From Pomacea canaliculata (taxonomy: Eukaryota > Mollusca > Gastropoda > Architaenioglossa > Ampullariidae): a DNA stretch of 64,000 nt. Below are positions 25,605 to 64,000 of the stretch, in pieces. The stretch spans positions 38,370,751 to 38,434,750 of the forward strand of contig NC_037590.1 in assembly GCF_003073045.1 (NCBI RefSeq). Reading direction: 5' to 3'. Both the position numbers and the translations under genes were made by a program. Numbering within the stretch: position 1 is the stretch's first letter; every line of letters starts with the position of its first letter. The notes beneath the pieces are model-generated. The model made no database searches. It saw nothing but the letters and a program-made list of their open reading frames with translations, and was not told the DNA's origin.

Positions 25605-26256
25605 CACAAAAAAACAACAAACAATGAGATAACCTGAGCACTCGTGCACCCTTAGCGCACAAACGCTGACTCCTGCCAATGACCTACAAATCCTTGTTTC
25701 TTCTTCTTCTTGCCTTCCATGAAGATAACGCCCTGCTCGAATGTTTTGCTGATTCCTTTGGAGTTCACTGAAGAACATGAATCGCGAAACTTATTTGAAC
25801 TTTAAATTTGCATTAAACTTTATATAAAGTCTTATCTCCCATCTCTCAATCTTTCTTTCTCTCTCCTTTTCACATCTCTATGATTATCCCCTCTTCGACC
25901 AACCTATTTTTTAATCTCACTTCTCACTAACCTTTCTGTAGCCCCCTCCCCCCATCTCTCTCTCTCTCAACTTTTCCTAACCTCTCTTTTTCTTTCTACT
26001 CTTTCTCTACGTTTTGTATCACTGTAACAGAAAATCTCTTGCCAGTAAGTTACAAAACATTCACTACAACTGCACGGTTACGATATCTACACTCACATTC
26101 TACTCTTAGAATGTTTAATGAGTCTTGTTGATGACTATTTTAAAACGATTGCACTAGAAAGTTGTGAATCATATGGTGGACTTTAGAGAAGATGAAGATG
26201 GTCAGTAAAACAGGATGAGGGCTTACAGAATAAAATGTTGCTGTTTGGTTCGAAAT

Positions 26257-26479
26257 GAGTACAGGTGTCACTCTGAGATAAAGTACCGTAGTCACTCTAG
26301 AATATGTACACATGTTATTTTAGAATAAGTACCGAAGTCACTCTAAAATAAGTATAATAAGTCCTGGGGTCGCTCTAGAATAGATACTGGGGTCAAGTTA
26401 GGCTTGGTACCCGGAGTCCCTCTAAAAAAGGTCCTGGTGTCATATCGACAGGTAGTACTGGGGTCACTCTAGAAAAGGT
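26257..26479. repeat. Degenerate ~25-bp tandem repeat upstream of the PDZ gene (copy A)
   Basis: About nine diverged units of the form AGTACTGGGGTCACTCTAGA separated by 3-8 A-rich bases. It lies about 0.75 kb upstream of the PDZ start codon. Matching tracts are at 38126-38348 and 56973-57190. Confidence 0.8.
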
Positions 26480-27201
26480 TTGTGGCATAAAGGAGACGGA
26501 AAACAGCAATGTGGATACCATTTTTTCGTTTGTTTTTTTTTGTTTTTGTTTTTTTTTTTTTTCATTTCAGAAGTATTGATATCGTCTCCACATGAGGAAT
26601 TGTGTTCTCCAAATTCTTCTTATTATTATTCGGTGGAAGCCATTCTGTTAAAAGTTACACCTCCTACCCAACTCATTACCACCTTCGCCCACTCTTTGCG
26701 CCAGTTAACGGATGTTTACTTTTAAAACTAGTTGTACCCAGCAAGTGTAGCAGCCGACACGAAAACAACAAAGATTACGAATAATAATGTCCCTTCCCTA
26801 TTTTACTGATTAACAGCTCAACACGTTGTCTGCAGACCGTCGGCGCCATGCAGTCCTGTGTGGAGCTCGTACAAAGGCAAGACATCGAAAAGCCAGCAGA
26901 AGAAAAGCAAGAGGGTGGAAAGAGGGAGAAACAGGGAGCTGGGGGGAGGCCTGACGAGGTACAGCGGGCGACCTGCCAAAGGGAACATCGGTGTGGAAGT
27001 TGCTGTAAGAGCTGCCAGCGGCTCAGTCTGGCGACGGCACAACGATGGTGCTGATGATGACAGCAACGACAACATCAACGTAAGCCCGCAGGCTCGCTGT
27101 TTCGACCGAAGGAGTGTTTTTCACGCGGGAGTGTTCCACACATACAAACACAAATATTATACAGGGACGCGCGCTTTCTTGCTTTGGCTATTCTGACTGG
27201 C

Positions 27202-27321
27202 ATGGATTACAGTGACTGTGTGTACGTGTGCCTGCGGAGGACAACTCCAGTCAGCCGTGGGGTTTTCGTCTCATGGGGGGCTATGACCAGGGCCAGTATT
27301 TGTACGAAAAATTAGGACCAA
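27202..27321 (+). pseudogene. PDZ-domain gene, exon 1, damaged copy A
   Basis: The start ATG and codons for MDYSDCVYVCLRR match copies B and C. One G is then missing (CTGCGGAGGACAAC instead of CTGCGGAGGGACAAC), which shifts the frame before the PDZ carboxylate-binding loop. At the 3' end TACGTTGCCAAG|GTAAGG of the other copies is replaced by TACGAAAAATTAGGACCAAG and then TAAGG, so the normal donor is also lost. Given the many single-base indels in this region, a consensus error is as likely as real decay. Confidence 0.7.
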
Positions 27322-30300
27322 GTAAGGGTGTGTGATAACAGTTAACAATAAAGTAAACCGAAACACTCCGACAAGCCTGGAGCTTCTTTCTGTGTATCCT
27401 CAGCTCAATAACTTTAGGCATAATTCTACCTCATCATCATTGTCATCATCATCATCATCATCATCATTATCATCTTCGTTACTTGTATTATTATTGTTGC
27501 TATTTTGTTTTCTTAATCCCTGTTGCTATTATCGGCGCGGACATACCTGTATACACTGACGTTGGTGCGGTCGGCAGGAAAGACGAGAAAAGTGTTTGTA
27601 CAAAAGGATGAAAGCAACAGTCTTGACTGAGAAACGAGTTCCGAGAGCTGTTGCAGTGCATGCTTTTGTCTGCTTTTGATCTTTCTCGCACATTTACATT
27701 CACACACGTGCAAGTATTTAGATGCAATCCTTCAGTGGTCACGCGAGCACGCGCGCACACACACAAACAAATCAAGTGCTGGCTCGGCGTTGTACACTTC
27801 CCAGCACTTCTCAAAATCTGTTTTATTGTTAATGGCCTCCAGCGGCAGGTCAGGTCGGGTGTCTGCAAGGAGGGTAGGGGTTGGTGAAGGATGAGGAGAG
27901 GCGAAGGCGAGCGCGTGCATGTACAGACGTTTAACGTTCACTTGCCTACGTCACTGAACACTTAAAAGTCTTTCAGTCGTGTGTGTAGAACGATATGCCG
28001 ATGTTCTCTTTCTTGACTGCTGAGATGATGAAGATGCCTGGTGTATGTATGTGTGTGTGTGGCCAGACTTTGCAAATGTCTTGGTCTTAGCTGCCAGGAA
28101 AGTTGGTAAAGTAGAAAAGGTCAAGACTCCCTATAACCTAACGACAGCAAGTGGTCCACCGTATCAAGAAACAACGAGATAAATATTGTCATCGTCTCAT
28201 CGTCATCACCGTCCTTGCATGATCGCCAGAAATCAACACCCACACTTTCCAGATCCAAGCACCCACCTACCTACAACCACCACCCCACCCGAACATACAC
28301 ACCCACGCAAACAGGTTAAGTACCAACACCCAGCTAATCGCACCAACAGGCAGCGCGCTAGAGAGTCAAGCGTTTGTGTACCCGCACGCGCCAGCATCTT
28401 TTTCTTCTTGTTTGCTGGTTTGCATTAACGTGGGCGTTAGCTGTGGGCTCGTTACAGACGTGCTCGGCGATAAACAGGTCTCGTGCGCGAGGAGAGAAAG
28501 TAAAATGCGCAGCGTCACTACAGTTGAATCGCGGGCACGTGACCATGAGTGGCAAACAGAGACAAACGCTGGCGAACACGCAGCACGTCCACAGGACTGG
28601 CGTTAGTTTTTCGTCTGCCATGCAACGAGGAGGTGGTGGGTGGGGAAATGCGGGTACCCAGGGGAGGGGAGTTGATGATCAATGTACTCGGTGAATCCAT
28701 AAACTAGCACCGTGTGAGCGTCTCGACGCGTACAACTTGTTCGTCTGTGGTTTAGTTTTTTTCTGTACATGAAGACACGTGCATCAGGTTGCAGGTAAAA
28801 CCTAGTTTCAGCTCGCAGCACGCGGAGATCGACTGTTTGTCGCCATTATAACCAACTGCACGTGGGGCCATACATCTACCCCATGTATCTGTCGAGACAC
28901 GACCACCTTGAACTCGTTGGCGAAATTACAAATATTAAAGTTCGCCTCAAGATCTCCTGTATGTACGACTGACACTTTTTTTGAACTGGCGATAAACATG
29001 TCTCGTGTGCTGAACACACGGAGCGGGGAAATGCATGTAATTCATGGAGTCTCGAAACTCGTACAAAAGAAAAAATATAATTTGTAGGTTTTGTAGACGC
29101 TTGACAGTAACTCACAGCCTTTCTCCCTTTATATCTATCATCTCTTAAACTCACCCATCCACTTACCTCCCCAACACACACTCTACTTTTTTTTTATTCT
29201 TATTCCATCCTTCAGAAAACAGGTTTGCTACCGTGGATGCTCAGTGACAACTTGTCTCTCACTCCTGTACCTTTGTATACAGATCTTACCTTGCTTATCT
29301 CTAGCGGTTGTGCAGGTCAGAACCAAACTGGCGATATCCTGTTGGAGATGAGTGCAGCCTTTTCTTAACAGGTGTTGTACATTTGTAGCCCTAACACCTA
29401 CAAAAACAATAGTCTTCTCCCGCTAACCGCAAAACGTTTCGCTAAATGTTCTAGTAGGGCTGCACGGTGCGTCCTTAGGGGAAACTGCGAAACTTGTTTC
29501 TTCCACCATCCATCTTGTGTTCCCCGACACCCTTCTGACTGGGTACGAGTAGGATTTATAGTGAGTCTGGCTCTGTTCTCGTCGGTCACTTCAATCATTT
29601 CGGTCATGCACGTGTCCTACCTGCTTCCTGTGCAATGGGTTTTTAGTCGGTTTATGTTTTATGCAAAAATATTGTCAGAGATATGAACGTTAGAATTTGT
29701 GGTTTTTTCATTTCTTCAAATCACTAATGACTTACTTTAAGTATTTTATAAATTATAATATTAAGGAAACTGTTATGTATACGAAATGCTTTAAACACAC
29801 ACACACACACACGAGCGCGCTAACATTCACAAATATCCCTTCTTCCATCTGGCACCATCGAATAACACTCACCTTCCAATGTCTTGTCTTTATTTTATGA
29901 CAGTCTGTGGTTTGGCAAACAGCCTGAATCTGACAAACCTTCTAGAAGTTTCCGTTATACTGCAATCTCAGCATATATCTTGGGTCATACTGCTGCTAAC
30001 ACATGTCTCATCTGCCCAGTGCAGAATGTATGTCGGAGGCAAGAATGAATGAGCAGACAAGTTTACTTTATTACAGCAATTACCGGTGTTAGAAAAGGAT
30101 TGTTCGTTAAAGAACGAAACACAATATCTATGCAGGCGTGAAATAAATGTTGACTAATTATTGTCAGAGTAAATCAAATAAACATTGTAAGACAGCACCG
30201 CATATATATAACTGTCTATCGATCTCTCTATCTCTATAAATGTAAATTTTTAATGAGACTTTATTTAGGCCTGGAAGTTTACGACATTAATATTTTCAAA

Positions 30301-30650
30301 ACTAATCCCAGGAGTCTATAAATATCGAGGTTTCAATGCAAAAAGTCCACACACAAGTTCTTATCTTTTTAAACCTCCCCATCTGTTCGTCCCGTCCGTC
30401 TTATCTCTCGATTAAAAAAAAAGTATTTCACTCGGCTGTTTCACTCAACTAGAAAAAAAGACAACTACGACGACGATGATGATGGAATTGAATTCGCAAG
30501 TTATACTTGTAATGGGAAACCTGAAATAATGTTATTCTGCCTATTAGGCAAGTGATGCTCATCTTGCAAGTATAAGCCTCCACACTCGAATTCTCAGACT
30601 GAACCTGGAGGTGGACTTTGAAGCTTCACATTTTCTTGCCTCTGTTGCAT

Positions 30651-30818
30651 GTCAACCCCGAAGTCTCGCCGAGAAGTTTCACCTGCAGGCCAGGTGATGC
30701 GTCAGGCGGATCGGACAATTTGCCAAGCGCTGTACCTCAACCTGACCAGGCCAAAGCTGCGAGATTCCTGCGAGCCGGCAACGAGCTGCGAACTGATGCA
30801 TAAGGAGGGTGTCAATAG
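30651..30818 (+). pseudogene. PDZ-domain gene, exon 2, damaged copy A
   Basis: This matches the second PDZ exon (compare 52667-52828) but the acceptor reads GTTGCAT instead of GTTGCAG, and several single-base gains and losses break the frame (for example GATGCGTCAGGCGG against GATGGCGTCATGCGG). The 3.3-kb distance from exon 1 equals that in copies B and C. Confidence 0.7.
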
Positions 30819-31294
30819 GCGACAGATCGCATTTTTCTAATGTACCTCCTTCCTCTCGTTTCACTTATACGCGGCAATCATTGGATGTCTGTTCTTGTAA
30901 TGTCGCATGATCATGAAGCGATTTTACAGTAGATTGAATGGTGATTTGGTTTCTCTTTGGTTTCTGCCCATTTGCACGACAGCAAATATTTACTCAGCTA
31001 AAGGACGTCGATGCTCAATGGCTGGACATCAGTTTCTCAGCGGATTCACAGGAGCTAATAAAACCCCAATAACCCAATGCCCAAAACATTTACTTGACAG
31101 TAAAAATTGCAGACATGATTGTCACTTCTTTTAGTATTCGGAGACTAACAACAGTACAACAGCTTATTTGACAGGTGTTTCATTTGCAGAAGTACTATTT
31201 AAAATTCATATTTTTTTTTTTAAAAAATTCCACAGGATGGTTACCGACTTATCATTCATCACTTGTTATGTACAATTGGTTTATTTTTTTCCCT

Positions 31295-31357
31295 CTACAT
31301 TCATAACATGCGTCAGAGGGGCAGTCCAGAGCCATGACGTCACAGGGTTCGAAGCCC
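31295..31357 (+). mobile_element. SINE head, truncated by the assembly gap (copy A)
   Basis: GCGTCAGAGGGGCAGTCC followed by the B-box-like GGGTTCGAAGCCC. The same element continues beyond this point in copies B and C; here the contig ends inside it. Confidence 0.55.
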
Positions 31358-31457
31358 NNNNNNNNNNNNNNNNNNNNNNNNNNNNNNNNNNNNNNNNNNN
31401 NNNNNNNNNNNNNNNNNNNNNNNNNNNNNNNNNNNNNNNNNNNNNNNNNNNNNNNNN
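31358..31457. other. Assembly gap, exactly 100 N
   Basis: One hundred consecutive N, the usual placeholder for a scaffold join of unknown size. The two sides hold inverted copies of the same locus. An open frame that appears to cross it has no meaning. Confidence 0.99.
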
Positions 31458-36900: not shown

Positions 36901-37282
36901 TGAATGTAAATGTGCGAGAAAGATCAAAAGCAGACAAAAGCATGCACTGCAACAGCCTCTCGGAACTCGTTCATGCTCAGTCAAGACTGTTGCTTTCATC
37001 CTTTTGTACAAACACTTTTCTCGTCTTTCCTGCCGACCGTACAACGTCAGTTATACAGGTATGTCATCGCGATAATAGCAACAGGGATTAAGAAAACAAC
37101 AATAGCAACAATAATAATACAAGTAACGAAGATGATAATGATGATGATGATGATGATGATGACAATGATGATGAGGTAGAATTATGCCTAAAGTTATTGA
37201 GCTGAGGATACACAGAAAGAAGCTCAGGCTTGTCGGAGTGTTTCGTTTACTTTATTGTTAACTGTTATCACACCACCCTTAC
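33986..37282 (-). other. PDZ gene intron 1 (copy B)
   Basis: The 3.3-kb intron between PDZ exons 1 and 2. It contains an (ATG)n tract (about 37133-37172), short GT/CA runs and no recognisable exon. Matching introns are at 27322-30650 (inverted) and 52829-56160. Confidence 0.7.
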
Positions 37283-37396
37283 CTTGGCAACGTACAAATA
37301 CTGGCCCTGGTCATAGCCCCCCAAGAGACGAAAACCCCACGGCTGACTGGAGTTGTCCCTCCGCAGGCACACGTACACACAGTCACTGTAATCCAT
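37283..37396 (-). CDS. PDZ-domain protein, start exon (copy B)
   Basis: Thirty-eight codons in phase 0, starting MDYSDCVYVCLRRDNSS and running into QPWGFRLLGGYDQGQYLYVA, then Lys. PWGFRL.GG is the carboxylate-binding loop and first strands of a PDZ domain that begins at the very N-terminus, as in PDLIM/Zasp- and synaptopodin-2-type muscle and cytoskeletal proteins. The donor is AAG|GTAAGG. I start at this Met because PDZ-first proteins of this type have a similarly short leader; an open frame extends further upstream but has no recognisable content. The LIM or other downstream domains are not in the window, so the exact family is unresolved. Confidence 0.78.
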
Positions 37397-38125
37397 GCCA
37401 GTCAGAATAGCCAAGCAAGAAAGCACGCGTCCCTGTATGTATATGTATGTTTGTATGTGTGAACACTCCTCGTGAAAAACACTCCACCGGTCGAAACAGC
37501 GAGCCTGCGGGCTTACGTTGATGTTGTCGTTGCTGTCATCATCAGCACCATCGTTGCGCCGTCGCCAGACTGAGCCGCTGGCAGCTCTTACAGCAACTTC
37601 CACACCGATGTTCCCTTTGGCAGGTCGCCCGCTGTACCTCGTCAGGCCTCCCCCCAGCTCCCTGTTTCTCCCTCTTTCCACCCTCTTGCTTTTCTTCTGC
37701 TGGCTTTTCGATGTCTTGCCTTTGTACGAGCTCCACACAGGACTGCATGGCGCCGACGGTCTGCAGACAACGTGTTGAGCTGTTAATCAGTAAAATAGGG
37801 AAGGGACATTATTATTCGTAATCTTTGTTGTTTTCGTGTCGGCTGCTACACTTGCTGGGTACAACTAGTTTTAAAAGTAAACATCCGCTAACTGGCGCAA
37901 AGAGTGGGCGAAGGTGGTCATGAGTTGGGTAGGAGGTGTAAACTTTTAACAGAATGGCTTCCACCAAATAATAATAAGAAGAATTTGGAGAACACAATTC
38001 CTCATGTGGAGACGATATCAATACTTTCTGAAATGAAAAAAAAAAAAAAAACAAAGAAACAAACAAACAAACGAAAAAATGGTATCCACATTGCTGTTTT
38101 CCGTCTCCTTTATGCCACAAACCTT

Positions 38126-38994: not shown

Positions 38995-41655
38995 CGGCGT
39001 GGTGCTCCTGCCAGTGCCCGACCCACACACCCGGCAGCCGGGTGGTGCTCCTGCCAGTGGTAAAGCTGGTGCCGACCCACCCACACCGCCTGGTAGCTGG
39101 GTGGCTGGTGGTGCTCCTGCCCAGTGGTAAAGCTGGTGCCGACCACCCACACCCGCCTTGCAGCCGGGTGGTGCTCCTGCCCAGTGGTAAAGCTGGTGCG
39201 ACCCACCACACCCGCCTTGCAGCCGGGGTGGTGCTCCTGCCCAGTGGTAAATGCTGGTGCCGACCCCACCCACACCCGCCTTGCAGCCGGGGTGGTGCTC
39301 CTGCCCAGTGGTAAAGCTGGTGCCGACACCCACACCGCCGTGCAGCCTCTCCTGCCCAGTGTAAAAGCTGGTGCCGACCCACCCACACCCGCCTTGCAGC
39401 CGGGTGGTTGGTGCTCCTGCCCAGTGGTAAAGCTGGTGCCGACCCACCCACACCCGCTTGCAGCCGGGGTGCTGCTCCTGCAGTGGTAAAGCTCTGCCGA
39501 CCACCCACACCCGCCTTGCAGCCGGTGGTGCTCCTGCCCAGTGGTAAAGCTGGTGCCGACCCACCCACACCCGCCTTGCAGCCGGGGTGGTGCTCCTGCC
39601 CAGTGGTAAAGCTGGTGCCCGACCCACCCACACCGCCTTGCAGCCGGGGTGGTGCTCCTGCCCAGTGGTAAAGCTGGTGCGGACCCACCCACACCCGCCT
39701 TGCAGCCGGGTGGTGCTCCTGCCCAGTGGTAAAGCTGGTGCCGACCCACCCACACCCGCCTTGCAGCCGGGCGGTGGTGCTCCTGCCCAGTGTAAAGCTG
39801 GTGCCGACCCACCCACACCCGCCTTGCAGCCGGGGTGGTGCTCCTGCCCAGTGGTAAAGCTGGTGCCGACCCACCCACACCCGCCTTGCAGCCGGGGTGG
39901 TGCTCCTGCCCAGTGGTAAAGCTGGTGCCGACCCACCCACACCCGCCTTGCAGCCGGGGTGGTGCTCCTGCCCAGTGGTAAAGCTGGTGCCGACCCACCC
40001 ACACCCGCCTTGCAGCCGGGGTGGTGCTCCTGCCCAGTGGTAAAGCTGGTGCCGACCCACCCACACCCGCCTTGCAGCCGGGGTGGTGCTCCTGCCCAGT
40101 GGTAAAGCTGGTGCCGACCCACCCACACCCGCCTTGCAGCCGGGGTGGTGCTCCTGCCCAGTGGTAAAGCTGGTGCCGACCCACCCACACCCGCCTTGCA
40201 GCCGGGTGTGCTCCTGCCCAGTGGTAAAGCTGGTGCGACCCACCCACACCCGCCTTGCAGCCGGGTGGTGCTCCTGCCCAGTGGTAAAGCTGGTGCCGAC
40301 CACCCACACCCGCCTTGCAGCCGGGGTGGTGCTCCTGCCCATGGTAAAGCTGTGTGCGACCCCACCCACACCCGCCTTGCAGCCGGGGTGGTGCTCCTGC
40401 CCAGTGGTAAAGCTGGTGCGACCCACCCACACCCGCCTTGCAGCCGGGTGGGTGCTCCTGCCCCAGTGGTAAAAGCTGGTGCCGACCCACCCACACCCGC
40501 CTTGCAGCCGGGGTGGTGCTCCTGCCCCAGTGGTAAAGCTGGTGCCGACCCACCCACACCCGCCTTGCAGCCGGGTGGTGCTCCTGCCCAGTGGTAAAGC
40601 TGGTGCCGACCCACCCACACCCGCCTTTGCAGCCGGGGTGGTGCTCCTGCCCAGTGGTAAAGCTGGTGCCGACCCACCCACACCCGCCTTGCAGCCGGGG
40701 TGGTGCTCCTGCCAGTGGTAAAGCTGGTGCCGACCCACCCACACCGCCTTGCAGCCGGGGTGGTGCTCCTGCCCAGTGGTAAAGCTGGTGCCGACCCACC
40801 ACACCCGCCTTGCAGCCGGGGTGGTGCTCCTGCCAGTGGTAAAGCTGGTGCCGACCACCCACACCCGCCTTGCAGCGGGGTGGTGCTCCTGCCAGTGGTA
40901 AAGCTGGTGCCGACCCACCCACACCCGCCTTGCAGCCGGGGTGGTGCTCCTGCCCAGTGGTAAAGCTGGTGCCGACCCACCCACACCCGCCTTGCAGCCG
41001 GTGGTGCTCCTGCCCAGTGTAAAGCTGGTGCCGACCCACCCACACCCGCCTTGCAGCCGGGGTGGTGCTCCTGCCCAGTGGTAAAGCTGGTGCCGACCCA
41101 CCCACACCCGCCTTGCAGCCGGGTGGTGCTCCTGCCCAGTGGTAAAGCTGGTGCCGACCCACCCACACCGCCTTGCAGCCGGGTGGTGCTCCTGCCCAGT
41201 GGTAAAGCTGGTGCCGACCCACCCACACCCGCCTTGCAGCCGGTTGGTGCTCCTGCCCAGTGGTAAAGCTGGTGCCGACCCACCCACACCCGCCTTGCAG
41301 CCGGGGTGGTGCTCCTGCCCAGTGGTAAAAGCTGGTGCCGACCCACCACACCCGCCTTGCAGCGGGGTGGTGCTCCTGCCCAGTGGTAAAGCTGGTGCCG
41401 ACCCACCCACACCCGCCTTTGGTGCTCCTGCCCAGTGGTAAAAGCTGGTGCCGACCCACCACACCCGCTTGCAGCCGGGGTGGTGCTCCTGCCCAGTGGT
41501 AAAGCTGGGCCGACCCACCCACACCCGCTTGCAGCGGGTGGTGCTCCTGCCCAGTGGTAAAGCTGGTGCCGACCCACCCACACCCGCCTTGCAGCCGGGG
41601 TGGTGCTCCTGCCCAGTGGTAAAGCTGGTGCCGACCCACCCACACCCGCCTTTGC
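38995..41655. repeat. 62-bp minisatellite array, copy B (~43 units)
   Basis: The unit contains GGTGGTGCTCCTGCCCAGTG, then GTAAAGCTGGTGCCGACCC, then ACCCACACCCGCCTTGCAGC and CGG. Units from about 39840 to 40200 are almost perfect; others have single-base losses. Because 62 is not a multiple of three and the minus strand of the unit lacks stop codons, all three minus frames stay open for about 900 codons and each cycles through the same 62-residue peptide. GC content is far above that of the flanks. Copy A lacks the array entirely. Confidence 0.97.
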
Positions 41656-43235: not shown

Positions 43236-44225
43236 TCATAACCCTCCTTACCCCCCTGCCGCGCGTGCCCGCTTGTTAACTTGCTTCCATAGTCTGGGAT
43301 CTATGCATATTGTTTTCTTTTCTTTGGTTTTTTTTTGTCTGTAAATTTTATTATTTTTATTTTTTCCCAAATTATGTAAGGTCTCTATGTTCTAAAGTCC
43401 ATGTTTTGTAAATACTGAGAACGTAACCTGTGTCGTTGTATATTGAAAACCACATGCTGCCTTTATTTACAGCAAGACAGGTACTGTTTCACTCCACAAA
43501 CAAAACGGAGAAAAAAAATCCCAATAAAGGTAAAATATTTTATTGGGGGTGGGGGTGGGGTAGAGGAATCACGGTGGGTAAATATTATCAGGAATTGTCT
43601 GAGTAGGTTCGTTTCTCTACTGTGTGATCACTAATGAAAAGTTATAAAACGTCGGCAGCCAACTGTTAAAACACGCACACCCCCTCACGAACGCAAGAAA
43701 ACAGAGGACTACCCGATGCCAAAAAAAAAAAAAAAGTAGACATAAGAGGCTAGTAAGAAAAAGAAGGTTAAACTTCCCCTCCAAGACCCACGTGTAATTT
43801 AAATAAACAAATCTAGGTTAGTGAAGTGTGGGTGTGTCACTTGCTATATCATGAAAGGAATTATGAAAACAGTATTTTAACGTTAATATCTTTAAAGTGT
43901 GTAGCAAGGTGTCATTTGCGCGAATAAAATACAAGGATTATTTATACTAACTTATTAATATAAAAAAATTGGTTTCTACTATTTTTCTAACAATAATTTT
44001 TAGAAAAGTAAGCTACGCAATAGTAGTACGGAACAGGCTAACGTGCGCTCCTTAGACAGGCTGGCTTGATGATTGGGTTTTAATCTAGTCTTGCAGGAGA
44101 GTGCTTAACCCAGGGGTCTCAAACTCGCGGCCCGCGGGCCAACTGCGGCCCGCGAAACAAAAGTTTGCGGCCCCCACCTCAATATCAAAGTTTCATGTTA
44201 GTGCGGCCCGAGTTTGATACTGTTA

Positions 44226-44776
44226 CAGTCAAATCTCGCTACTATGCCACCTACCGGGACCGAGCAAAAGTGGCATAATACCGAGGGTTCGTAAAAACGG
44301 CTTTATTTGCTCAAGTTACCCGTCAGTCCAAAGCTCTCAAGAATCGTCGGCTTCGCTAGCTGTCTCCTCTCATTCTCCCCCTCACCTCTTCATCCTCCAC
44401 CCCTCCCAACCAGGCAACCACATCCGCGCACCTGCATCCTGTCGCTAGTCGACCCCCTCCCGCTCTCCCTGTCATGTGGCTGTCACCCGGCCAGCGACTA
44501 CCACCCCCACATTGCCACCCTCCACCCTCCCTGTGTGCGTGCTAGGTTCCATCCACCTAACTGCGATGTCCCACACTACCATACAGTATAGTAATCGAGC
44601 ACTGCGTGGAATTTCACAACTTGTGTCTTTTAACAGTCACAAAAAAAGTGGCATAGTAGCGAGAGTCTGGGGTGGCATAGTAAATTTTTTTTACATTTAT
44701 AGTCGGGACCGAGCAAAAGTGGCATAATACCGAGAGTGGCATAGTAGCGGGGTGGCATAGTAGGGAGATTTGACTG
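44226..44776. mobile_element. Nested pogo/Tigger-type MITE, 551 bp
   Basis: The ends read CAGTCAAATCTCGCTACTAT and the matching ATAGTAGGGAGATTTGACTG, flanked by TA on both sides (44224-44225 and 44777-44778). The motif GGGACCGAGCAAAAGTGGCA occurs near both ends in the same orientation. It has no transposase and lies between the hAT left end and the hAT coding region, so it inserted after, or travelled within, the hAT element. Confidence 0.9.
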
Positions 44777-45165
44777 TATATCTTCTCCTCTCTCGCTCCT
44801 TAGACTGCAACTTCCAGTTTCTGTCAACTGTCCTCTGGATGGTCCGGGCGGGTGGCCATAAATCTTGACCAGTGACACGTGGCCCGACGACTTCAAGCGG
44901 ACGGGCCGTTGGGAAAAAGTTGGGTGTCTGCCAGTTTCCATGAATCGGTCAACTTCAAAGGGAGGACTGGAGACACGCCACGCGGAGGGAGAAACATCTT
45001 AGCTTCTGCGTGAGAAAAAAATCCTCACTTTCAAACTGCTCGTTGGCGAAAGGAGGTCCGTCTCGAGAAACGTAAAGTTGTATGTAGTGAAGATAGGCCG
45101 TTTGTGTTGGTAGTTCAATGAGGTGTGCGGAACGAAAGTCAGTTTAAGTTTGCCATTGCACAACA

Positions 45166-47055
45166 GTGAGCCCGCAAAGACCTTTACGCACAGCTCCAAA
45201 CATGTTTTTTTCAAAGCCTGCAGTTAAGAGAAAGGTTGGTGATGAGCACAGACAATTTCAGGAAAAGTGGGAAGAGCAATATTTCTTTGTTGAGCACAGA
45301 GGCAGCCCAACGTGTCTTATTTGCACAGAGAAAGTTGCAGTGCACAAAGAATACAATTTGAAACGTGATTACACAACTAGACATGCTGAGGAGTATGCAA
45401 TACCAGGGAGATGAGAGAGTCAGCCGGGTTGCTAATCTCAAAACATATCTACTGAGGCAACAAAATTTCTTGAAGAAAGCAACAAAGAGAAATGACGCAG
45501 CAGTCGAAGCTAGCTACGTGGTTAGTGGGATGATTGCTAAAGCAGGAAAGGCCATTCAAAGAAGGTGAATTTTTTAAAAATGTGCATATTACAGGCTGCA
45601 AGTATTGTCTGTCCAGAAAAGAAAGGTCAGTTTAGCAACATCAGCCTTTCTGCCAACACCGTAGCAGAGCGCATTTCTGACCTGTCAACTGACATTTATG
45701 ATCAACTGTGTGAGAAAGCAAAATGTTTCATATATATATTATTTCATATTGTATACTCAGTCGCTCTTGATGAGACCACAGACATCACCGACACTGCCCA
45801 ACTCGCAGTCTTTGTCCGCGGTGTTGATGACACTTTTGAAGTCATAGAGGAGTTGTTCACAGTGATTCCAATGCATGGCCAGACCACCGCTCAGGAGATA
45901 TTTCACCAGCTGTGTGATGCCATTGAGAATGCCGGTTTGCCTTGGAGGAGGTTTGTTGGAATAGCAACTGATGGAGCGCCATCAATGACAGGGAGGAAAA
46001 ATGGACTGGTGGCACTTGTTCCAAAAAAACTGGAAGAGGAAGGTGTGGAGGAGGCCATTGCTCTGCACTGCATTATTCATCAGCAGGCTTTTTGCAGCAA
46101 ATGCCTGAAGTTTGACAATGTGATGTCTATCGTTGTGAAATGTATCAACCAAATCAGATCCAGGGGCTTAAAGCACAGAAGGTTTCGTGCTTTTTTAGAG
46201 GAAATGGAGTCAGAATATGGGGATGTGCTCTGCTTCACCGAGGTACGTTGACTCAGCAGGGGAAACATATTGAAGAGATTTTTTGAGTTGAGAGCCGAAG
46301 TGAAAGCCTTCATGGAGGAAGATGGGGTTGCTGTTCCTGGGCTAAGTGATCCAAAATGGCTCATGGACTTAGCTTTTTGGTTGATATGACACATGAGCTT
46401 AACGTACTGAACAAGAAGCTACAAGGTCAGGGGCAACTTGTCAGTGTTGCCTATGACAACGTGAGAGCATTCTCTACAAACTTATGTTATGAAAGCCCAG
46501 CTTTTCAGACAAACCTTTGCCATTTCCCAGCATGCAAGGCACTCATGGATGCAGGCACACCGTTCAGCGGGTGAAGAGTATGTGGATGTCATTTTGAAGC
46601 TAATAACAGCAGGAATTTGATCACAGATTTGCAGACTTCAAGACGCACAGAACCACATTTCAAATTTTTGCGGACCCCTTCTCCTTTGATGTGCAAGATG
46701 CTCCTCCTGTGCTTCAAATGGAGCTCATTGACCTGCAGTGCAACTCTGAACTCAAAGCCAAGTTCAGGGAGGTGAGTGGAAAAGCAGACAAGCTCGGGGC
46801 AATTTTTTGAGAGAGATGGCCCCTAGCTTCCCTGAGCTTTCCCGAATGTTCAAGCGGCACCATGTGTCTTTTTGGAGCACATACTTGTGCGAAAAGCTCT
46901 TCTTTACCTTGAACTTCAATAAGTCCAAGTACAGATCCAGACTTACTGATGAGCATCTTCAAGCCGTACGAGGGTCTCAACTCTTCCTCCCTTAAGCCAA
47001 ATGTGGCTTGGCTATGTGAGAGTAAGCGCTGCCACATCTCTAGCAGCAAGAAGTA
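45166..47055 (+). pseudogene. hAT-family transposase, degraded
   Basis: The translated pieces, spread over frames, give in order: a BED/zinc-finger-like region (CLICTEKVAVH ... TTRHAEEY, about 45310-45400); the first catalytic Asp context SVALDETTDITDTAQLAVF (about 45760); the second, FVGIATDGAPSMTGRKNG (about 45955); a cysteine/histidine motif LHCIIHQQAFCSKCL (about 46060); and a C-terminal dimerisation-like segment near FNKSKYRSRLTDEHLQAV (about 46915). It resembles the transposases often annotated as GTF2IRD2- or ZBED-like in animal genomes. Breaks include frame changes near 45400 and 45570, a stop at 46249-46251 where Trp is expected (EVR*LSRGN), a frameshift near 46370 and a stop near 46574. 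It is not expected to be active. Confidence 0.9.
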
Positions 47056-47727
47056 GGCAGAAGAAGCCATGTTCAAAACAGTTTATGTTCAATGTTCCAT
47101 TCATGTTCAGAAAGTTAAATGTTAAAGAAATGCTAATACAGACATTTGAATCTGAATAATAATAATTACATTTCTCTGGTCAGCAACTATATTTTCTTCA
47201 GTCTTCTATATCTGCTGTATTATTATTATATTTTCATTTTCAATTATTTATTTATTACTGATTGATTTATTTTTTCTTATAAATTTGTTAATTTATTTTT
47301 TATTTTTTAATAGATGAAAAATAAGACATTTTTGACATTGGAATGTTTTTGTAAGAGCTTTTCTTGTGGAAAACCTGATGCGGCCCAGCCTCATCCAGAC
47401 TCTGCCTCCAGTGGCCCCCGGGTAAATTGAGTTTGAGACCCCTGGCTTAACCCAACTTCGAACTATGGCTTGAGAGTTGTGTTATTACAGAGTGATTTCC
47501 CTTTAGTTTGCACTCTTATAAAATTTAATTTTGAAACTGTGTCTGCTAATGAACGTTACAAACTTGACATTTACAATGAGAATATACAACATTTATACCT
47601 TTAGAGTATTCAAATGAATTTGCTTATAAATTTGCAAAATACTAATAAGTGTTAAGCATTTATTAACACACACCTTTAAGAAAAAAAGTAGCAATTTTCA
47701 GTGGGTCAGATGACTGCCTCTGTCACT

Positions 47728-48374: not shown

Positions 48375-49600
48375 CTAGGTTAGTGAAATGTGGGTGTGTC
48401 ACTTTCTATATCATGAAATGAATTATGAAAACACTATTTTAACGTTAATATCTTTAAAGTGTGTAGCAAGGTGTCATTTGCGCGAATAAAATACAAGGAT
48501 TATTTATACTAACTTATTAATATATATAAAAAAAATTGTTTCTACTATTTCTCTAACAATAATTTTTAGAAAAGTAAGCTACGCAATAGGAGTACGGAAC
48601 AGGCTAACGTGCGCTCCTTAGACAGGCTGGCTTGATGATTGGGTTTTAAACTAGTCTTGAAGGAGGGTGCTTAACCCAACTTCGGACTACGGCTTGAGAG
48701 TTGTGTTATTACAGAGTGATTTCCCTTTAAATTGCACTCTTATAAAATTTAATTTTAAAACTTTGTCTGCTAATGAACGTTACAAACGTAACATTTACAA
48801 TGAGAATATACAACATTTATACCTTTAGAGTATTCAAATGAATTTGCTTATAAATTTGCAAAATACTAATAAGTGTTAAGCATTTATTAATACACACCTA
48901 TAAGAAAAAAAGAAGCAATTTTCAGTGGGTCAGATGACTGCCTCTATCACTTACTCTGGTTTCTCTTCAACTCACGAGAAAATCTTTCGCCTTTTACTAA
49001 AGATTTCCGTGGAGAGGAACAACTTAATGAGTCTAGTGACTTATTTTTCTCAGCCCTGCTCCTGCAGGGTAACAATCAAAATGTCAAATTAATACTCCCA
49101 CACACAACATAGATGCTAGTCTCATTTCTTATTGGCGGGCAGCAATCGAATGCCTACCGAACACATTCATTACTTATTCATATATAATAATATAACTATA
49201 AAAATATTTTGCGTAAACTGTTTGTTATTAGAAGAAAGGAATAATAAAAACTTTTGGATAAGAAAAGATTATGCAACACTAATTTCCCAAACAATTGTTT
49301 TAAACATTACGATGAAGACACTTAATTGCTGGTAATTGAGTAATACTTTTCAGTGTCTGGAATGTATACCACGGCGACTATCCCCTGTAGGACCCCGGGG
49401 TAGGCTTGCCTAGCGAGCGTTGTAAAAATAGGGTCCCGGCCGCTGATTTCTTTGGTAAAGTAGTGGCAGGGCTAACAACCCCACCATGAAAAAAAAAAAA
49501 AGCTTGTTACAGAAACCAACACCAGAGTATTCGACACGGATGGCGAGGGTAATGCAAAGAACGACGAATATAGGATATTAGTTGGTGTATATACATTGTG
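48375..49600. repeat. 1.2-kb tandem unit 2 (no transposon)
   Basis: A head-to-tail copy of unit 1, about 1,226 bp, with a few percent differences. It has the empty hAT target GCTTAACC at 48669-48676 and the conserved block at 48952-49072. Confidence 0.93.
48952..49072. repeat. 121-bp conserved block, copy 2
   Basis: Identical to copy 3 except for one A-to-G change (GAGTCTAGTGAC). Confidence 0.85.
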
Positions 49601-55800: not shown

Positions 55801-56160
55801 AAAGATCAAAAAGCAGACAAAGCATGCACTGCAACAGCCTCTCGGAACTCGTTCATGCTCAGTCAGACTGTTGCTTTCATCCTTTTGTACAAACACTTTT
55901 CTCGTCTTCCCTGCCGACCGTACAACGTCAGTTATACAGGTATGTCATCGCGATAATAGCAACAGATTAAGAAACAACAATAGCAACAATAATAATACAA
56001 GTAACGAAGATGATAATGATGATGATGATGATGATGATGACAATGATGATGAGGTAGAATTATGCCTAAAGTTATTGAGCTGAGGATACACAGAAAGAAG
56101 CTCAGGCTTGTCGGAGTGTTTCGTTTACTTTATTGTTAACTGTTATCACACCACCCTTAC
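52829..56160 (-). other. PDZ gene intron 1 (copy C)
   Basis: A 3.3-kb intron, collinear with the copy B intron. It contains the (GAT)n tract at about 56009-56052 and a short GT run at about 53685-53701. No exon is recognised. Confidence 0.7.
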
Positions 56161-56274
56161 CTTGGCAACGTACAAATACTGGCCCTGGTCATAGCCCCCC
56201 ATGAGACGAAAACCCCACGGCTGACTGGAGTTGTCCCTCCGCAGGCACACGTACACACAGTCACTGTAATCCAT
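56161..56274 (-). CDS. PDZ-domain protein, start exon (copy C)
   Basis: Thirty-eight codons, identical to copy B except Met for Leu in PWGFRLMGG (ATG for TTG). Copy A also has ATG, so copy B carries the odd base. The donor AAG|GTAAGG is intact. With 52667-52828 this is the only copy in the window in which both PDZ exons are unbroken. Confidence 0.78.
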
Positions 56275-56972
56275 GCCAGTCAGAATAGCCAAGCAAGAAA
56301 GCACGCGTCCCTGTATGTATATGTATGTTTGTATGTGTGAACACTCCTCGTGAAAAACACTCCACCGGTCGAAACAGCGAGCCTGCGGGCTTACGTTGAT
56401 GTTGTCGTTGCTGTCATCATCAGCACCATCGTTGCGCCGTCGCCAGACTGAGCCGCTGGCAGCTCTTACAGCAACTTCCACACCGATGTTCCCTTTGGCA
56501 GGTCGCCCGCTGTACCTCAGCCTCCCCCCTCCCTGTTTCTCCTCTTTTCCACCCTCTTGCTTTTCTTTGCTGGCTTTTCGATGTCTTGCTTTGTACGAGC
56601 TCCACACAGGATGCATGGCGCCGACGGTCTGCAGAAACGTGTTGAGCTGTTAATCAGTAAATAGGAAGGACATTTTATTCGTAATCTTTGTTGTTTTCGT
56701 GTCGGCTGTACACTTGCTGGGTAAAACTAGTTTTAAAGTAATCCGCTAACTGGCGCAAAGAGTGGGCGAAGGTGGTCATGAGTTGGGTAGGAGGTGTAAC
56801 TTTAACAGAATGGCTTCACCAATAATAATAAAGAATTTGGAGAACACATTTCCTCATGTGGAGACGATATCAATACTTTCTGAAATGAAAAAAAAAAAAA
56901 AACAAAGAAAACAAACAAACAAACGAAAAATGGTATCACATTGCTGTTTTCCGTTCCTTTATGCCACAAACC

Positions 56973-57825: not shown

Positions 57826-60800
57826 AGCCGGGCTGGTGCTGCCTGCTCAGTGGTAAAGCTGTGCCGGTGGTCTCCTGCCACCCACCCACCGACCCGCCTT
57901 GCAGCGGGGTGGTGTGCTCCTGCCCAGTGGTAAAGCTGGTGCCGACCCACCCACACCCGCCTTGCAGCCGGGGTGGTGCTCCTGCCAGTGGTAAAGCTGT
58001 GCCGACCCACCCACACCACCACACCCGCCTTGCAGCCGGGTGGTGCTCCTGCCCAGTGGTAAAGCTGGTGCCGACACACCCACACCCGCCTTGAGCCGGG
58101 GCGGGTGGGGCTCCTGCCCAGGGTCTGTGTCCGACCCACCCACACCCCGCTGCCCGGTGGTGCTCTGCCCAGTGGTAAAGCTGAGTGCCGACCACCCACA
58201 CCCGCTTGCACCGGGTGGCTCCTGCTTGCGGTGGTGCCGACCACCCACACCCGCCGGGTGGTGCTCCTGCCCAGTGGGTAAGCTGGTGCCGACCACCCAC
58301 CCCGCTGCAGCATTGCGGGGTTGCTCCTGCCAGTGTAAAGCCGGTGGTGGTGCCTTGCAGTTTTGGTGCGCCTCCTGCCCAGTGGTAAGCTGTGCCGGAC
58401 CCACCCAACACCGCCTGGTTGGTGCTCCTGCCCAGTGGTAAAGCTGTGCCGACCCAGCCCACACCCGCCTTGCAGCCGGGGGTGGTGCTCCTGCCGTGGT
58501 AAACCCGCTTGTGCCGACCCGACCAACCCGCCTTGCAGCCGGGGTGTGGCTCCTCCCAGTGGTAAAGCTGGTCCCGACCACCACACCCGCCTTGCAGCCG
58601 GGGTGGTAAAAGCTTGCCACCCCCCACACCCGTGCGCCGGGGTGTTGTCCCTGCCCCAGTGTAAAGCCCCCCACACCGCCTTGCAGCCGGGGGTGCTCCT
58701 GCCCAGTGGTAAAGTGGTGCCGACAACCACCCGCACGCCGGGTGGTTGCTCCTGCCCAGTGGTAAAAGACCCCACCCACACCGCCTTGCGGGTGTGCTCC
58801 TGTAGTGGTAAGCTTGGAGCGACCCACCCACACGGGTGGTGCTCTCGACCCCACTGCCCAGTGGTAAAGCTGGTGCCGACCCAACCCACACAAAATTTTG
58901 CGGAGAGGTGGGTGCTTTGCGCTTGGTGTCCGACCCACCACACCCGCGGGCAGGGAGGTGGTGCTCGGGATAAGCGCCCAGTGGAAAGCTATGGGATAGC
59001 CGACCACACCCACACCCGTGAGCCGGGGGTAAAGCTCCTGCCCAGTGTAAATAGCCAGTGGTAAAGCTGGTCTCCGACCCACCCACCACACCCGCCTGCA
59101 GCCGTGTTTGGTGCGCCTGCCCTGCCCAGGGTAAAGCTGGATGCCGACCACCCACACCGAAGGGGCCTTTCTTCGCTAGCGGTTGGTGCTTCCTGCCCAG
59201 TGGGCTAAGTGGATAAGCGTGGTGCCGACCCACCACCCCGCCTTGCACCCGGCCTTGCTTCACTGCAGCCGACCACCCACACCCTTGCAGCCGGGGGTTG
59301 TGCCTGCTGCTGCCCAGTGGTAAAGCTGGTGCCCGACCCACCCACCACCCGCCTTGCACCGGTGGTGCTCCTGCCCAGTGGTAAAGCTGGTGCCGACCCA
59401 CCCACACCCGCCTTGCAGCCGGGGGTGCTCCTGCCCAGTGGTAAAGCTGGTGCCGACACCCACACCGCCTTGCAAGCCGGGTGGTGCTCCTGCCAGTGGT
59501 AAGCTGGTGCCGGACCCACCCACAACCCGCCTTGCAGCCGGGGGTGGTGCTCCTGCCCAGTGGTAAAGCTGGTGCCGACCACACCCACACCCGCCTTTGC
59601 AGCCGGGGTGGTGCTCCTGCCCAGTGGTAAAGCTGGTGCCGACCCACCCACACCCGCCTTGCAGCCGGGTGGTGCTCCTGCCCAAGTGGTAAAGCTGGTG
59701 CCGACCCACCCACACCGCCTTGCAGCCGGGTGGTGCTCCTGCCCAGTGGTAAAGCTGGTGCCGACCCACCCACACCCGCCTTGCAGCCGGGTGGTGGTGC
59801 TCGCTGCCAGTGGAAAGGGGCTGTGCCGACCCACCCACACCCGCCTTGCAGCCGGCGGTGGTTGCTCCTGTGCCCAGTGCCCAGTGGCTAAAGCTGGTGC
59901 CGACCCACCCACACCCGCCTTGCAGCCGGGGTGTGCTCCTGCCCAGTGGTAAAGCTTGGTGCCGACCACACCCGCCTTGCAGCCGGGGTGGTGCTCCTGC
60001 CAGTGGTAAAGACACCCACACCGCCTTGCAGGTGGTGCCCCCAGTGGTAAGCTGGTGGGACCACCCAACACGCCTTGCAGCCGGGGTGTGTGCTCCTGCC
60101 CAGTGGTAAAGCTGGTGCCGACCCACCACACCGCCTTGCAGCCGGGTGGTGCTCCTGCCCGTGGTTAAAGCTGGTGCGATCCCACCACACCCGCCTTGCA
60201 GCCGGTGGTGCTCCTGCCGTGGTAAAGTGGTGCCGACACCCACACCCCTTGCCTTGAGCCGCTCCTGCCAGTGTAAAGCTGGTGCCACCCCCGACCACAC
60301 CCGCGCCGGGGTGGTGCTCCTGCCCAGTAAAAGCTGGTGCCGACCCACCCACCCCACGCCTTGCAGCCGGGGTGGTGCTCTGCCAGTGTAAAGCTGGTGC
60401 CGACCCACCCACACCGCCTTGCAGCAGGGGTAGTGGTAAGCTGGTGCGAGACCCACCCACACCCGCCTTTGCAGCCTTGTGGTGGTGCTCCTGCCCACGG
60501 TGCCGACCCACCCACCCCGCCTTGCAGCCGGGTGGTGCTCCTGCCCAGTGGTAAAAGCTGGTTCTGCCGACCCACCCACCACCCGCCTTGCAGCCGGGTG
60601 GTGGCTCCTGCCCAGTGGTAAAGCTGGTGCCGACCCACCCACACCGCTTGCAGCCGGGGTGGTGCTCCTGCCCAGTTGGTAGCTGGTGCCGACCCACCCA
60701 CCCGCCTTGACCCGCCTTGCGCCGGGGTGGTGCTCCTGCCCAGTGGTAAAGCTGGTGCCGACCCACCACACCGCCTTGCAGCCGGGTGGTGCTCCTGCCC

Positions 60801-61497
60801 AGTGGTAAAGCTTGCAGCCGGGGGTGGATGGTAAAGCTGTGCCCGACCCACCCACACCCGCCTTGCAGCTGGGGTTGGTGCTCCTGCCCAGTGGTAAAGC
60901 TGGTGCCGACCGACCCACACCGCGCAGCCGGGTGGTGCTCTGCCACTGGTGCCGACCCACCACCGCCTTGCAGCCGGGGTGGTTCTCCTGCCAGTGGTAA
61001 GCTGGTGCCCTGACCCCCCACCCACACGCCTTGCAAGGAAACCGGAGTGGTGCTCCTTTGGCCCAGTGTGTAGCTTGGTGCCGACCCACCCACACCCGCC
61101 GTTGCAGCCGGTTGTTGCATGGTAAAAAGCTGGTGCCGGGTGTGCTCCTGGCCCACCCACCACACCGCCTTGCAGCCGGTGGTAAAGGTGCTCCTGGCCC
61201 AGTGGTAAAGCTTGCAGCCGGGTGCCGACCACCCACACCCGCCTTGCAGCCGGGGTGTTGTGCTCCTGCCAGTGGTTAAAGCTGTGCCGACCCACCCACA
61301 CCCGCCTTGCAGCCGGGGTGGTGCTCCTGCCCAGTGGTAAAGCTGGTGCCCGACCACCACACCCGCCTTGCAGCGGGGTGGTGCTCCTGCCCAGTGGTAA
61401 AGCTGGTGCCGACCCACCCACACCCGCCTTGCAGCCGGGGTGGTGCTCCTGCCCAGTGGTAAAGCTGGTGCCGACCCACCCACACCCGCCTTTGCGC
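57826..61497. repeat. 62-bp minisatellite array, copy C (~59 units, disordered)
   Basis: The same unit as at 38995-41655, but the array is about 1 kb longer and irregular: units at 58090-59330 and 59930-61270 are interrupted by small deletions, insertions and fused half-units, while 59550-59800 and 61280-61497 are regular. The final unit and flank (GCCTTTGCGCCAACAGCCGC) match copy B. Confidence 0.95.
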
Positions 61498-63650: not shown

Positions 63651-64000
63651 CTAGGTTAGTGAAGTGTGGGTGGTGTCACTTGCTATATCATGAAAGGAAT
63701 TATGAAACAGTATTTTAACGTTATATCTTTAAAGTGTGTAGCAAGTGTCATTTGCGCGAATAAACTACAAGGATTATTTATACAATTATTAATATAAAAA
63801 ATTGGTTTCTACTATTTTTCTAACAATAATTTTTAGAAAAAGTAAGCTACGCATAGTAGTACGAACAGGCTAACGTGCGCTCCTTAGACAGGCTGGCTTT
63901 GATGATTGGTTTTAATCTGTCTGCAGGAGAGATGCTTAACCCAACTTCGAACTATGGCTTGAGAGTTGTGTTATACAGAGTGATTTCCTTTTAGTTTGCA
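63651..64000. repeat. Start of a 1.2-kb tandem unit (copy C), empty hAT site
   Basis: Begins CTAGGTTAGTGAAGTGTGGG as units 1 and 2 do, and continues to the window edge. GCTTAACC occurs once at 63934-63941 with no transposon, directly followed by CAACTTCGAACTATGGC as in the right flank of the occupied site. Confidence 0.92.

Follow-up and report, generated by a model that had tools for sequence, protein, structure and literature searches.

We argue, with a confidence of about 90%, that the 64,000-nucleotide stretch of Pomacea canaliculata DNA analyzed here (the window; C1:38370751-38434750, within a contig C1 of 45,418,568 bp in a genome of 440,159,624 bp and 24 contigs) records how a hAT transposon recently inserted into a locally duplicated segment, in unit 1 of its copy B, and that this transposon carries in turn the history of a nested miniature inverted-repeat transposable element (MITE). 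The transposon, a hAT element with Buster-type target sites, measures 3,334 bp (44111-47444, plus strand) and ends in 16-bp terminal inverted repeats, CAGGGGTCTCAAACTC, without a mismatch (44111-44126, plus strand; 47429-47444, minus strand). It is bordered on either side by a copy of the target-site duplication GCTTAACC, which is of the nnnTAnnn type (44103-44110 and 47445-47452, both on the plus strand). An element with perfect 16-bp inverted repeats and a perfect 8-bp duplication had been described in the original prediction, and we recovered the same coordinates and the same ends. Elsewhere in the window GCTTAACC occurs only at 48669-48676 and 63934-63941. As a bare 8-mer it is common enough (shuffled sequences contain 2.12 matches on average, and four or more in 16 of 100 shuffles), and the argument for homology of these positions therefore depends on their flanks.

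Once the element is taken out, its two flanks can be joined and aligned to their proposed counterparts: tandem unit 2 of copy B gives 285 matches, 15 mismatches and 2 gap columns, and unit 1 of copy C, which lies in indel-rich sequence, gives 277 matches, 17 mismatches and 12 gap columns. The two empty sites proposed originally (48669-48676 and 63934-63941, plus strand) are thus true homologues of the filled one rather than positions with unrelated flanks; a chance 8-mer match as their source was excluded, given that the flanks align across 300 bp and further. Four more empty sites had not been noticed before, namely unit 2 of copy C, downstream of the window, units 1 and 2 of copy D, which is inverted and lies ~38 kb downstream, and a paralogue on chromosome 6 (~96% identical over 1.9 kb). 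This brings the tally to one filled and six empty homologous sites, and each of the six holds a single perfect GCTTAACC with no added bases. Unit 1 of copy D agrees with the joined flanks at 300 positions with 0 mismatches and 1 gap column, and over 2,001 bp with 7 mismatches and 2 gap positions; the difference between B and D rises with distance from the site, to 21 mismatches in 3.6 kb and 48 in 4,960 positions over 5 kb.

Because these homologous sites are empty, the insertion must have come later than the tandem 1.2-kb duplication and later than the split of B from C and D. An age below that of the unit duplication and of the B/C split had already been put forward, in agreement with what we find; that the insertion is also younger than the B/D split is shown by the additional empty sites. 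It followed the separation of B and D, at ~0.35% divergence near the site. The B/C split is a weak clock and copy D the better comparator, since C is indel-rich and lies on a possibly redundant contig: compared with B over 3.6 kb, C shows 152 indels to 17 mismatches and D only 16 to 21 (Fisher p ~3e-9), and C carries what look like long-read consensus errors. Dating from B versus C was set aside on these counts. As for the mechanism, known hAT biology would have the transposase make a staggered 8-bp cut at GCTTAACC, to which the element would be joined, with repair then duplicating the 8 bp.

The relatives of the element bear out its classification. The family listing comprises 45 rows (the best 40 of 74 candidates scored), corresponding to 39 places besides the window, 32 of which were fetched, and most of the fetched copies are 94-97% identical to the window copy. 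Both ends could be located in 29 copies, the window copy included (L031, L036, L043 and L053, in which an end was not located, were excluded from this count), and in 25 of them the 8-bp duplication is perfect. All 25 duplications are distinct, all have TA at positions 4-5 (nnnTAnnn), 18 have T at position 2 and 19 have A at position 7. The four imperfect ones differ by one mismatch (L029 and L030), by three (L033), or by one base that depends on the end coordinate used (L047). The family thus combines the features of the hAT superfamily (an 8-bp duplication, short inverted repeats and a C-terminal dimerization domain) with nnnTAnnn, which is the target of the Buster family according to passages of PMC3517528 and PMC3499496. 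Copies L044-L054, from 11 fetched places, make up a subfamily with a common internal deletion (position 115 joined to 1185) that removes the start of the transposase; L045 and L047 have their flanks in common and could represent a single locus in duplicate.

The state of the insertion in the population is closely tied to the assembly around it. Copies B and C lie on one contig (31458-68235 in extended coordinates) with a gap of 100 N at each side; the left gap (31358-31457) is the point at which copy A stops exactly, and the right one lies just beyond the window. Outside the element nearly all of this contig matches both of its neighbors, in inverted orientation, and the facing ends of the two neighbors resemble each other (83-84%, with many gaps). 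One possibility is that the contig, in inverted orientation between homologous neighbors, is an alternative haplotype or a redundant piece of assembly, in which case B filled and D empty would be alleles and the insertion polymorphic, and another is that it is a real tandem pair. We lean toward the former, and hence toward an element most likely present in one haplotype only. The B-D differences given above, at every distance, fall inside the 1-2% heterozygosity given for the Pomacea canaliculata assembly in passages of PMC6129957, which is consistent with allelism. However, the contig contains two unit copies, B and C, whereas its neighbors together appear to contain about one, such that a real tandem duplication is possible too. 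Moreover, the redundancy filter outlined in the same passages, which removed contigs below 200 kb with more than 50% of their length aligned at above 80% identity (PMC6129957), might be expected to have discarded such a contig.

The transposase gene, as assembled, lies on the plus strand at 45202-47053 and is interrupted by 14 frame-changing indels and one in-frame stop relative to L026. Among the seven open pieces of the gene that were scanned, one contains the PF18658 zinc finger and one the hAT dimerization domain PF05699, both above the Pfam cut-offs (PF05699 scores 22.7 bits against a cut-off of 21.4, and 30.4 bits in L026), and one contains a weak DUF4371 match below its cut-off; a phmmer search against solved structures gave no hAT match. 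Uninterrupted frames, as had been suggested as a thing to look for in the genome, exist in three of the 32 fetched relatives (612 codons in L026, 622 in L032 and 611 in L038, all from a common start). A protein search gave 159 matches, and those listed include additional long frames, the longest of them 658 aa and belonging to a relative at 41% identity. The breaks in the window copy are mostly its own. Ten of the 14 indels are private, being found in none of the 31-32 other copies that cover the place, and the remaining four are each found in one other copy, different each time and itself indel-rich (L031, L033, L035 and L048); the in-frame stop is present in two of 31 copies as well. (L034, the coding part of which is mostly deleted, was omitted from this table and from the tree described below.)

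The ratio of indels to mismatches in the window copy is 33:37 against L023 and 33:58 against L026, as compared with 6:41 (L023 versus L026), 10:40 and 5:47 in better-resolved pairs, which amounts to an excess of 3.5-6x in odds (p ~1e-4, 0.005 and 1e-4 in the three comparisons). This excess, together with the mostly private nature of the indels, is why many of the transposase breaks look to us like consensus errors, and probably are. The ratio is indistinguishable from that of the nearest B-D flank (2:7, p 0.45). The same pattern is seen in other copies, such as L050, which has 2 private substitutions and 9 frame-changing indels in its coding part.

The original prediction held that the transposase was already broken at the time of insertion, and that the element was probably moved in trans by another copy or that some of the breaks are consensus errors. 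The gene is indeed broken as assembled, but with ten of 14 indels private its being broken on arrival is not secured; of the two options offered, consensus error is favored by the indel excess and mobilization in trans is weakened by it. An element that was dead on landing and was moved by another copy's transposase we consider possible, at somewhat below even odds. Uninterrupted relatives do exist as potential sources, and the window copy has accumulated 20 private substitutions in 2,578 columns (24, as 10+2+12, by another method), compared with only 5 B-only substitutions in ~4,960 positions of the flanks (Fisher p ~3e-6). Provided that C is a fair outgroup, the majority of these private changes would predate the insertion, which would fit an element that had resided elsewhere earlier. 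Against this stand, first, the indels, ten of which are private and none of which is common to a group of copies, and the excess of which suggests consensus error. Second, the substitutions show no significant excess (p 0.08) when set against all of the differences between B and D close to the site (7 in 2,001), and the B-D difference of 48 in 4,960 over 5 kb matches or exceeds the rate of the element itself. The probable source of the transposase is an uninterrupted relative, or else the window copy, should its breaks be assembly errors.

Inside the hAT element, between its left end and the transposase gene, lies the second transposon, a MITE of 551 bp (44226-44776) that had escaped the original prediction. 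It has TA on both sides and ends, CAGTCAAATCTC, that are perfect over 12 bp, which are the TA duplication and inverted repeats of a Tc1/mariner-type element, and it belongs to a high-copy family of its own (758 candidates; among the best 40 scored, 39 besides the window copy at 89-97%). The position of its junction could be read in 33 hAT copies. Twelve are pristine, with a single TA, and nine, including the window copy, contain the MITE, some of them partly deleted. Five read TA-CATG-TA, which we take to be a Tc1-type footprint, three TA-CAG-TA, three TA-CTG-TA, and one CAG with a second insert; these are letters of the element ends left between two TAs, as in Tc1/mariner-type footprints. The second insert (L036:876-1742) is an 867-bp TA-flanked element with ends CAGTGATACCTCGG that sits in the right TA of the CAG footprint and thus represents a second occupation of the site. 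Genome-wide, exact junctions number 46 for the pristine state, 6 for the MITE, 3 for CAG and 2 for CTG, and reversed controls give 0. Each footprint class is found at hAT copies with different flanks, from which it follows that the scars were probably carried there by hAT transposition. The three CTG copies (L038-L040) match the window element as far as ~126, then have a different leader, and match it once more from 1028 onward.

A Tc1/mariner-type MITE would accordingly have entered a hAT progenitor at one TA, as the junctions suggest, and in other hAT lineages it would have been excised at least two to three times, the CATG, CAG and CTG footprints then spreading with the hAT copies. That minimum is two to three because CAG and CTG could both resolve from one excision. 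On a tree of 32 copies (on which L036 and L043 were labelled "?", their junctions being read later as CAG with a second insert and as pristine, respectively), the CAG copies come out as a single supported clade (100/99) and the other junction classes are unresolved. Well-supported branches require at most one change for any junction class, and a single origin of each footprint class is allowed. It is highly improbable that CATG, CAG and CTG arose as small random indels in a lineage without the MITE. They are, admittedly, sequences of only 3-4 bp, and several copies contain consensus errors; nevertheless, at the target of the MITE they lie precisely between two TAs, consist only of MITE end letters (CA, TG, CAG, CTG) and recur in five, three and three copies at different loci. 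In addition, two of them match TACAGTA and TACTGTA, the consensus footprints of Sleeping Beauty given in passages of PMC4378557, and footprints of 2-4 bp are general for Tc1/mariner elements according to parts of PMC7913693.

Two of the relatives with uninterrupted frames, L032 and L038, belong to MITE-free scar lineages, and the third, L026, retains a MITE with an internal deletion. It is conceivable, if rather doubtful, that the MITE was a reversible passenger: after a single insertion between the left end of the hAT element and its transposase gene, it would have traveled to many loci and been lost several times by independent excision, with the scar lineages spreading. On this view the presence of the MITE may have lowered hAT activity, which would have recovered once the MITE was removed. 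Least credible of all is that the six empty sites are excisions of an older hAT insertion instead of sites that were never filled: hAT elements are capable of excision, but hAT excision usually leaves altered target duplications, and this origin was rejected because all six, spread over several copies and a second chromosome, have one perfect GCTTAACC and no extra bases.

Several points nonetheless count against the insertion and nested-MITE history that we prefer. With respect to the MITE, the genome-wide count of junctions covers the pristine, MITE, CAG and CTG states and not CATG; L031 has GA rather than TA to the left of its MITE; L036 has a CAG footprint yet is placed outside the CAG clade; and the tree, with poor support in places, implies 5 changes for the MITE (8 rows), 5 for CATG (5), 2 for CTG (3) and 2 for the pristine state (11). 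With respect to the insertion, the relations among the copies are blurred by two N gaps and by indel-rich sequence, and its polymorphic state is plausible as judged from the assembly alone.

Around the insertion, copy A (25607-31357) is inverted and ~91% like B and C, with numerous single-base gaps. GC-rich minisatellite arrays of 62/124 bp lie at 39034-41652 in B and at 57876-61492 in C, and are present in D downstream too. Open frames on the minus strand of B (37268-37786) and C (56146-56649) have a stretch in common, which by eye we presume to resemble a PDZ domain.

Taken together, the insertion is an ordinary but very clean recent hAT event; each of the processes involved is known, and it is the record that is unusually clean. 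It provides a clean insertion test amid a reported recent hAT expansion, with a single filled site to set against six empty homologues, including one that is free of mismatches over 300 bp. The scars of the nested MITE can be used as lineage tags for ordering hAT subfamilies chronologically, and they suggest that members of the MITE family were excised, and not only inserted, during the expansion of the hAT family. The transposase also serves as a warning that, in a long-read assembly, interrupted frames of repeat copies may reflect errors in the consensus.

As to known systems, a literature search on TACATGTA together with Tc1 found nothing related, and another on hAT, nested transposons and excision footprints found nothing on this subject as judged by title. 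The snail family shares with the Buster family (TcBuster, SPIN, Mar) the 8-bp nnnTAnnn duplications and the hAT dimerization domain, and with Mar, in the passages that describe it, ends that begin with CAG. It differs in that its ends are its own and in that the window copy has a MITE nested in it and, as assembled, a broken frame. The DNA/hAT-Charlie expansion described for Pomacea canaliculata in passages of PMC6129957 concerns the same superfamily and probably the same genome, and is likened here by superfamily. The DNA-transposon peak at ~4% divergence given there lies beside the 94-97% identity to the window copy of most of our fetched copies, although the two measures differ; those passages describe no single insertion, target duplication, empty site or nested element. 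The closest parallels for the MITE scars are Sleeping Beauty (PMC4378557), the Stowaway MITEs of the Triticeae beta-amylase gene (PMC1925063) and ZB (PMC7913693), in which, according to parts of these papers, two TAs likewise surround a few end bases; passages on Stowaway also describe a site with several distinct footprints and, next to a footprint, a later insert (PMC1925063), as at the snail MITE site. In contrast to these cases, as far as their passages describe them, the host locus in the snail is itself a transposon, and hence each footprint is found at several places in the genome.

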